Part shown: positions 43,706-45,788 of the stretch, in pieces
Numbering within the stretch: position 1 is the first letter of the stretch
Layout: each line of letters begins with the position of its first letter
Program-made: the position numbers and the translations under genes
The notes under the pieces: model-generated
Databases searched by the model: none
Told to the model about the DNA's origin: nothing
What the model saw: the letters and a program-made list of their open reading frames with translations, nothing else
From: Solirubrobacter soli DSM 22325
GTDB taxonomy: Bacteria > Actinomycetota > Thermoleophilia > Solirubrobacterales > Solirubrobacteraceae
Reading direction: 5' to 3'
NCBI RefSeq assembly: GCF_000423665.1
Contig: NZ_AUIK01000001.1
Location: 124,001 to 188,000, forward strand
DNA: 64,000 bases

Positions 43706-45178
43706 TTAAGGAAGCGGCCAGGTGTGGACCGGCTCGTTGGAGTGCATGTGGTCGCGGTAGCGGACGGTCATCTCGCGCAGGGCGTCGGCGCGGTCGAGGT
43801 TCTCGTAGAGGCGGTGGAAGCAGGCGGCCTGCCAGGAGGCGCCGTTGACGCCGCCGACGCAGCGGCGTTCGATGATCTCGAGCAGGCGGTCGGCGTCGCC
43901 CGAGTCGACCTCCCAGCGGGACAGGCCCTCGCGGGCGAGCGGGAGCAGGCGGCGCAACACCAGTTCCGTCGCCGGCGCCTCACCCACGCCGGGCCAGTAC
44001 AGCCGCGCGTCGATCCCCTGCCGCGCCCCCTCGTAGAAGTTCTCCTTCGCCGCATCGAAGGACATCGAGGACCAGACGGGGCGGTCGTCCTCGACCAGCA
44101 CGCGGATCAGCCCGTAGTAGAAGGCCGCGTTGGCGAGCGTGTCGACGATCGTCGGCCCCGCCGGCAGCACGCGGTTCTCCACGCGCAGGTGCGGACGTCC
44201 CCGCGCGATGTCATAGATCGGGCGATTCCAGCGGTAGATCGTCCCGTTGTGCAGCCGCAGCTCCTGCAGCCGAGGCGCTCCGCCGCTCTCCAGCACCGCC
44301 ATCGGGTCCTCGTCCTCGACCACCGGCAACAGCGCCGGGAAGTAGCGGACGTTCTCCTCGAAGAGGTCGAAGATCGACGTGATCCAGCGCTCCCCGAACC
44401 ACACCCGCGGGCGCACGCCCTGGGCCTTGAGCTCCTCCGGCCGCGTGTCCGTGGTCTGCTCGAACAGCGCGATCCGCGTCTCACGCCACAGCTCGCGCCC
44501 GAAGAAGAACGGGGAGTTCGCGCCGATCGCCATCTGCACGCCCGCGATCGCCTGCGCCGCGTTCCAGTGCGCGCCGAAGTGGGCGGGATCGATGATCTGG
44601 TGCAGCTGGACGCTCGTGCACGCCGCCTCGGGCGCGATCGTGTCCGCGAACATCGCGAGCCGCTCGACCCCGTTGATGTTGATCTCGAGGTCCTCCCCGC
44701 GAGCGGCGAAGATCTGCTCGTTCAGGAGCTTGTACCGCGGGTTCGCGCTCAAGGCGGACCCGTTCAGGAGATGCTCGGTGAGCGTCGGGAGGATCCCGAT
44801 GATCATCATGTGCGCGCGGGCCTTTGACGCCTGCTCCTCGGCGTGATTGAGATCCCGCCGCACGGTGTCCTCGAGCTCCGAGAAGACCTTCCCCTCCAGC
44901 TTGCGCGGCGGGATGTTGATCTCGATGTTGAACTGCGCGAGCTCGGTCTGGAAGTCGTCGTCGGCGATCAGCTCGAGCACGTGCGTGTTCGCGAGCGCCG
45001 GGTCGCCGGTCTCCTCGGTCAGGTTGAGCTCGATCTCCAACCCGATCGACCGGCGGTCAGGGTCGAACCGTGACTCGGCCAGCATGCGCTCGAAGACGTC
45101 GAGGCACAGCTTGACCTTGTCGCGGTAGCGCTGGCGGTTCTCGCGGCTGAAGGTGGTATCGGCGACTTCATCGCCCAT
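43706..45178 (-). CDS. Glutamate-cysteine ligase family protein (GCS2-like)
   Basis: The 490-residue protein has the GCS signature: SIGLEIELNL (metal/ATP-binding Glu), QFNIEINIPPRKL, ACTSVQLHQIIDP, GANSPFFFGRELWRETRI and HLRVENRVLPAGPTIVD. The family ligates glutamate to cysteine, the first step toward glutathione or, in some actinobacteria, toward ergothioneine. Only this step is encoded here. It is divergent from the MerB-like gene, 49 bp between starts, a context consistent with thiol chemistry and metal stress. No glutathione synthetase is in the window. Confidence 0.85.
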   Translation of the reverse strand: MGDEVADTTFSRENRQRYRDKVKLCLDVFERMLAESRFDPDRRSIGLEIELNLTEETGDPALANTHVLELIADDDFQTELAQFNIEINIPPRKLEGKVFSELEDTVRRDLNHAEEQASKARAHMMIIGILPTLTEHLLNGSALSANPRYKLLNEQIFAARGEDLEININGVERLAMFADTIAPEAACTSVQLHQIIDPAHFGAHWNAAQAIAGVQMAIGANSPFFFGRELWRETRIALFEQTTDTRPEELKAQGVRPRVWFGERWITSIFDLFEENVRYFPALLPVVEDEDPMAVLESGGAPRLQELRLHNGTIYRWNRPIYDIARGRPHLRVENRVLPAGPTIVDTLANAAFYYGLIRVLVEDDRPVWSSMSFDAAKENFYEGARQGIDARLYWPGVGEAPATELVLRRLLPLAREGLSRWEVDSGDADRLLEIIERRCVGGVNGASWQAACFHRLYENLDRADALREMTVRYRDHMHSNEPVHTWPLP

Positions 45179-45227: not shown

Positions 45228-45788
45228 ATGGATGAGCACGACCTGGCGCTCCGGCGAGCACTGTTCGAGGCCTTCGCCAACGGCACGCCGTTGCCGGAGG
45301 CCGACTACTCCTCGCTGGCGCGACAGCACATCGTCGCGCTCGACGAGGACGGCGACGTCCTGATGGCGCACCCGTTCGCCAACCACACGCAGGGCGCCCG
45401 AGTCGACGCGCGAGGCCGCACGTGGTGGGGCAACTGCGCGTGGGACGCGTTCGGGATCGTCGCCGCGCTCGATCTGGATCAAGCCACGATCACCGCCCAG
45501 GGCATCACGGTCGACACGAACACCGACGACGGCGCGGTCTTCCATGTCCTCGTCCCCGCGGCCCACTGGTGGGACGACATCGGCTTCACCTGAGCGACGA
45601 TGCGGCTCCTCCGGTCCGGGAGTGAGATCACCGAAGGCGAACTGGTCGACCTGCGGACGCTCAGGCGCCTCGCCGAGCGCTGGTACGGCAACCGGCTCGA
45701 CGCCGACTGGCGCCCACGCACCCGCGACGAGTCGCAGGCCATCCTCGACGAGGTCGGCCTGACCAGCCCGTTCTGGCAACTCCCCTAG
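45228..45788 (+). CDS. merB: MerB-like organomercurial lyase with in-frame TGA, candidate selenoprotein
   Basis: Residues 1-121 (MDEHDLALRRALFEAF..., AHPFANHTQGARV, GRTWWGNCAWDAFG, FHVLVPAAHWWDDIGFT) match alkylmercury lyase, with Cys70 and Asp73 equal to the catalytic C96 and D99 of MerB. TGA follows at codon 122 (45591-45593), where the family has its second catalytic Cys (C159, in the GFTC pattern). The same frame continues without a break for 64 codons (ATMRLLRSGSEI, RLAERWYGNRLDADW, GLTSPFWQL) to TAG at 45788, giving the normal C-terminus. A hairpin with a GGU loop starts 11 nt after the TGA. I therefore annotate one 186-residue protein with selenocysteine at 122. The alternative is a recent Cys-to-stop mutation. 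Confidence 0.78.
45591..45623 (+). promoter_or_regulatory. Candidate bacterial SECIS element with its UGA
   Basis: UGA is at 45591-45593. After 11 nt, GCUCCU (45605-45610) pairs with GGGAGU (45618-45623) with two G-U wobbles, closing a 7-nt loop CCGGUCC whose GGU lies at 45613-45615. In the E. coli fdhF SECIS the minimal stem-loop is likewise 11 nt from UGA and has GGUC in its loop. selA, selB, selC and selD are not in this window. Confidence 0.65.

Follow-up and report, generated by a model that had tools for sequence, protein, structure and literature searches.

A MerB-family gene of Solirubrobacter soli with a predicted selenocysteine codon at the Cys159 position, and relatives with TGA at both catalytic cysteines

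Described MerB proteins and predicted selenocysteine-containing relatives

The organomercurial lyase MerB binds mercury through Cys96 and Cys159, and Asp99 provides a proton to the leaving group, as described in the available part of PMC4525700. A survey of mer genes screened MerB for Cys96, Asp99, Cys117, and Cys159 and accepted MerB-like variants without Cys117 as well; in the available part of its text, the letters "selen" occur only in the reference list (PMC8261052).

Selenocysteine (Sec)-containing MerB-like proteins have been predicted before. An "Organic mercuric lyase MerB2" stands, with no details in the accessible portion, among the bacterial selenoproteins predicted in a 2020 study (PMC7435645); it represents the same idea of a Sec-containing MerB but can be compared with the present gene by name alone. 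In the accessible sections of a 2026 inventory of 119 families and subfamilies, the sole MerB entry is SaoL (NF040728), a MerB homologue with the motif CU and one predicted Sec, and neither a T-U-A motif nor a double-Sec MerB was seen there (PMC13188914). The accession NF040728 also accompanies a MerB-like protein in the available part of PMC9312934, which cites PMC2398784 and PMC5029168, and the word MerB is absent from the main texts of these two. Within the open-licence literature, represented mostly by titles and the beginnings of abstracts, no paper was found on Sec at Cys159 or on a double-Sec MerB. The initial annotation of the gene described here knew of no characterized Sec-MerB; a Sec-containing MerB-like protein is already on record as a prediction, both as SaoL and in the 2020 table, but the present gene is not SaoL, and the double-Sec loci reported below go beyond that annotation.

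The window gene, its catalytic positions, and its substrate

The window, a 64,000-nucleotide (nt) stretch of the S. soli DSM 22325 genome, contains on its forward strand an open reading frame (45228..45788) that begins with ATG at 45228, ends with TAG at 45786..45788, and has as its sole interruption a single in-frame TGA at codon 122 (45591..45593), such that it encodes 186 residues if this TGA specifies Sec. The terminal TAG lies within a CTAG (45785..45788) in which the convergent reading frame also terminates, likewise with TAG. By profile comparison, the product is a member of the MerB family: its score against PF03243 (gathering cut-off of 27 bits) rises from 29.8 bits for the part preceding the TGA to 40.0 bits upon read-through, with no match from the last 62 codons taken alone, and a family profile built from 11 members and run against solved MerB chains matches MerB2 (5C17) with 74.5 bits and the R831b-type MerB (1S6L) with 38.7 bits. 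Alignments of this profile to 5C17, 3F2G, and 3FN8 place the TGA residue on Cys159 and Cys70 (TGC, 45435..45437) on Cys96, the first catalytic thiol, and Asp73 (GAC, 45444..45446) aligns with the proton relay Asp99. The window gene is like MerB (PF03243; 1S6L, 3F2G, 3FN8, and MerB2 5C17) in family, in its two catalytic-thiol positions, and in its acid position, but has a TGA codon for the second thiol.

The initial annotation had read both halves of the gene in one frame, with the TGA at the second catalytic cysteine, Cys70 and Asp73 as the first catalytic pair, and the 64 codons 3′ of the TGA as a family-like C terminus, and each of these readings holds: the frame can be read directly, the residues align as given above, and the 64 codons have 41 to 58% identity to five relatives. 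The motif surrounding the TGA residue is FTUAT (T-U-A), and the stretch corresponding to that around MerB Cys117 contains no cysteine in the window protein. The divergently transcribed neighbor (43706-45178, reverse strand) matches glutamate-cysteine ligase family 2 weakly (23.4 bits; cut-off, 21), and a connection to thiol supply is possible.

Selenium binds mercury very tightly, and a selenol is more acidic than a thiol and the tighter mercury ligand. We consider it highly probable that the window gene encodes a MerB-family organomercurial lyase with Sec at the position of Cys159, produced by means of the organism's own SelA, SelB, and tRNA-Sec and a hairpin within the gene. Sec would be inserted at the UGA by these three components, aided by the hairpin just 3′ of the codon. 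The Sec122 selenolate, ionized at neutral pH, would capture the organomercurial, mercury would be held between Cys70 and Sec122, Asp73 would protonate the carbon leaving group, and the mercury would finally be handed to cell thiols. Sec insertion itself, the cleavage of organomercurials, and the chemistry are predictions from sequence.

Mercury is the likeliest substrate, as predicted from homology; the window genome has no MerA above the NCBIfam cut-off and no neighboring gene is widely common to the examined loci. These same features, together with the similar lack of a MerA above the cut-off in 30 of the 37 Sec-MerB carriers tested, favor a Sec enzyme of MerB fold whose substrate is some other organometal or a metalloid, or whose role is confined to mercury binding, an alternative that we regard as possible but rather unlikely: the Cys96/Asp99 pair is retained in the window protein and in the single-Sec family, and all seven genomes with a MerA above the cut-off possess a Sec-MerB. 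These seven come from 46 genomes (7 of 37 Sec-MerB carriers and 0 of 9 others, a small difference), and in one of them, G477, MerA is situated 3.2 kb from a double-Sec gene and beside an open reading frame whose translation reads as MerR-like.

Assuming that the window protein is a Sec-containing lyase, Sec would be used by a lyase to coordinate a metal, at the site for mercury; most uncharacterized bacterial selenoproteins are thought to have redox roles, according to the available part of PMC13188914. Because gene prediction that ends reading frames at TGA will shorten such genes, and a survey filter requiring Cys at both position 96 and position 159 can overlook them, demethylation genes may be more widespread in Actinomycetota, Chloroflexota, and Acidobacteriota than currently estimated.

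Selenocysteine machinery and the sequence following the TGA

The check for selA, selB, and selC put forward in the initial annotation found all three in the window genome (9.3 Mb, 95% complete, 8% contaminated). Both selA (454 bits against a cut-off of 268) and selB (271 bits against a cut-off of 242; 542 codons) are on the same contig as the window, and tRNA-Sec (selC), on a different contig, was detected by Rfam (63 bits) as well as by ARAGORN. The 8% contamination counts against the assignment of these genes to the host, but selA and selB share the contig of the window. In this genome TGA also serves as a normal stop, as at the end of selB.

Across genomes, selA occurred in 44 of the 48 entries with TGA at the site (two pairs of which look like one genome each), with the misses confined to three genomes of 68 to 77% completeness and a 1.6-Mb genome, as opposed to 16 of the 23 genomes with a stop-free match, in part of which the residue was confirmed (P = 0.03, Fisher test). 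The presence of selA is nevertheless weak evidence, because it is frequent among relatives that lack a MerB match (12 of 13 genomes of the same family). It was not found in G559, G621, and G578, which are all three genomes of one Cys branch, nor in G901, but is present in the Cys-type genomes G164, G179, and G137 and in all seven of the double-Sec genomes tested.

Within the window genome's own family, 5 of 146 genomes (its own included) contain a match, four with TGA and one (G137) with Cys, and in a genome collection seven loci were found, of which the six that cover the site all have TGA, their records being assigned to Dehalococcoidia (one), Actinomycetota (three), Acidobacteria (one), and Gemmatimonadetes (one). 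Wider searches returned matches, many of them partial or without an in-frame stop, in 42 of 396 genomes of the window's own phylum and, for the phyla to which the Dehalococcoidia and Acidobacteria loci belong, in 60 of 400 and 31 of 396 genomes, respectively; from plasmids there were two records only, 29 to 31% identical. We classified 118 loci by their first and second catalytic columns, obtaining 57 Cys/Sec, 31 Cys/Cys, 18 Sec/Sec, and 12 partial or odd cases, among which none had Sec at the first column alone. These loci were chosen from the matches listed, and Cys homologues are under-sampled because the additional loci were picked mostly for TGA; counted among the 31 Cys rows are L051, a frameshifted row from a TGA gene, and three odd forms (L156, L157, and L165), and duplicates or fragments (L001, L062, L033, L035, L109, L121, L136, and one L132 row) were left out of the counts.

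Within the aligned cores of the 118 loci, there are 101 in-frame TGAs, of which 80 fall in the Cys159 column, 18 in the Cys96 column, and only 3 elsewhere, in Cys proteins near their C termini; four TAA or TAG codons also lie inside these cores. The Cys159 column holds TGA or Cys, and the concentration of 80 plus 18 of 101 TGAs at catalytic columns makes a sequencing error or a lone nonsense mutation, the outcomes named in the initial annotation as fatal to its proposal, very unlikely as judged from this alignment. Two forms depart from the usual residues. L153 (in G1104) has TGG (Trp) in place of the TGA, has its first catalytic Cys replaced by Ser, and is perhaps a non-catalytic paralogue, and the MerB-like L156 and L157 have C-x-W-C instead of C-x-W-D as their first catalytic motif.

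The E. coli fdhF SECIS is a hairpin directly following the UGA, with GGU in its apical loop. The window gene has a similar element inside its coding sequence (45605..45623, forward strand), recognized by folding and family comparison, in which 45605-45610 pair with 45618-45623 to form a 6-bp stem with the loop CCGGUCC; it differs from the fdhF element in its location within a MerB gene and in the GGUC tetraloop kept in most relatives. This hairpin begins 11 nt after the TGA, just as the initial annotation stated, but it is weak: the 55 nt that were folded are less stable than the shuffle mean (z = +1.45), with 189 of 200 shuffles folding at least as well. An alternative fold has 4 bp and the loop GGUCCG (45613-45618), the GGUC of the window has zero pairs in the register used by the family, and Rfam at its gathering thresholds reports nothing within the window. 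The hairpin is one of the weakest in the family and the feature on which the case for the window gene is weakest; taken alone it is unremarkable, and the support for it comes from relatives, in which the loop is conserved.

That conservation is pronounced. The sequence following the second TGA conforms to a pattern like CUCUUCC-GGUC-GGAAGAG at a fixed distance, with GGUC at nucleotides 20 to 23 after the TGA in 76 of the 80 loci (the exceptions being L050, which is frameshifted, L061, which looks decayed, L084, and L147) and a stem of at least 5 bp around this place in 75 of the 80. GGUC is found there in 0 of the 31 Cys rows, one of which has a 10-bp stem at that place. In 1,000 shuffles of synonymous codons that keep the protein, GGUC was expected in 23.5 ± 3.8 loci (maximum, 34), as opposed to the 76 observed, and the mean stem was 2.2 ± 0.3 bp (maximum, 3.3), as opposed to 6.4 bp. 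Codon usage gives the same picture in a set of 52 loci: the Arg of the loop is encoded by CGG in 48 of 48 cases, compared with 265 of 1,052 (25%) elsewhere in the same genes, and in the two loci with Trp for this Arg, the loop remains GGUC with a closing U-A pair. Hairpin stability was discarded as a line of evidence, the mean z over the 48 nt after the TGA being -0.63 for 46 single-TGA rows (including L054, whose TGA is its terminal stop) and -0.22 for 985 control windows. The family signal is carried by the loop sequence and pairing rather than by the stability of the fold.

These results bear on the alternative that the TGA is a true stop, arising from a nonsense mutation, gene decay, or sequencing error in a Cys-type MerB. 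The weakness of the window hairpin and a few relatives that look decayed or frameshifted (e.g., L050, L051, and L061) are in its favor, but the recurrence of the same TGA in 80 loci and of the GGUC loop in 76, along with the MerB-like sequence that persists after the TGA, renders it very improbable. The case against Sec-MerB draws, besides the weak hairpin, on the missing cysteine in the Cys117 region and on L153 with its TGG. The presence of Sec genes, of TGA or Cys in the catalytic column, and of GGUC where there is TGA supports the initial annotation in reading the gene as a Sec-MerB. Membership in SaoL, the sole NCBIfam model matched by the window protein at an E value of 10, is hardly conceivable and is ruled out by the curated cut-off (11.1 bits against 140), with eight relatives scoring 20 to 52 bits, 0 of 396 genomes of the window's phylum having SaoL above the cut-off, and the motif being T-U-A rather than CU.

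Double-selenocysteine forms and their relationships

Among the 118 classified loci, 18 (in 15 genomes) differ further from MerB in having TGA at both catalytic cysteines, and six of them have Glu for the catalytic Asp. Type A (seven loci in G368, G477, G359, G894, and G675, the last with three copies) is characterized by the motif UGxE (once UGFD) followed by U[SA]xM[NH]LFR, and type B (10 loci in the nine genomes G549, G876, G935, G1317, G1196, G1140, G1041, G1058, and G1264, the last with two copies) by UAxD (once UGAD) followed by [FY]U....FFWSEEHA. L166 (G1183) represents a third and distant form, UGVD ... GGGUTVDNFFR, in which the first TGA is followed by a GGUC loop. Each first TGA is followed by a possible hairpin with GU in or beside its loop. 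When a wide range of loop positions was allowed, which was set only after the sequences had been inspected, the stems averaged 6.7 bp, compared with 4.8 ± 0.3 bp (maximum, 5.6) in 500 synonymous shuffles; in a narrower range, the average of 5.3 bp again exceeded all 500 shuffles (4.4 ± 0.3 bp; maximum, 5.1).

In an unrooted tree of 72 rows (40 Cys/Sec, 22 Cys/Cys, and 10 Sec/Sec), which omits loci from the search of the Acidobacteria locus's phylum, type A (seven rows) and type B (three rows) occupy two separate, distant branches. L129, a Cys/Sec row, is placed as sister to type A (support, 100/100) and looks like a step between single-Sec and type A double-Sec forms, and a Cys/Cys group (L032, L078, L043, and L045) is nested in the single-Sec family (support, 99/94); because the tree is unrooted, the directions of these changes are our interpretation. 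Three double-Sec genes, L092 (6001-7524), L093 (5974-7521), and L095 (80-1639, reverse strand), continue in frame into a C-terminal AAA-like ATPase, as seen in their translations, and L093, the one fusion scanned, matches Pfam AAA with 23.0 bits against a cut-off of 21.2. We think it probable that MerB has moved stepwise from sulfur to selenium, with a large single-Sec family (at Cys159), double-Sec forms on at least two branches with a separate hairpin for each TGA, and three AAA fusions. If so, the double-Sec forms would be mercury enzymes whose active site is entirely selenol-based, and natural variants of one family with Cys, one Sec, or two Sec would allow a test of why Sec is used when Cys suffices. 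The known double selenoprotein MbdU (NF045648) was considered as a relative and rejected, none of the six double-Sec proteins scanned matching it at an E value of 1.

A further in-frame TGA was observed in G196, a genome that also has a Sec-MerB. It lies in L135 (10347-10349, forward strand) at the first redox-motif Cys (GGTUINVGC) of a MerA-kind flavoprotein whose gene directly follows an HMA-MerA gene, and its product is possibly a Sec-containing relative of mercuric reductase.
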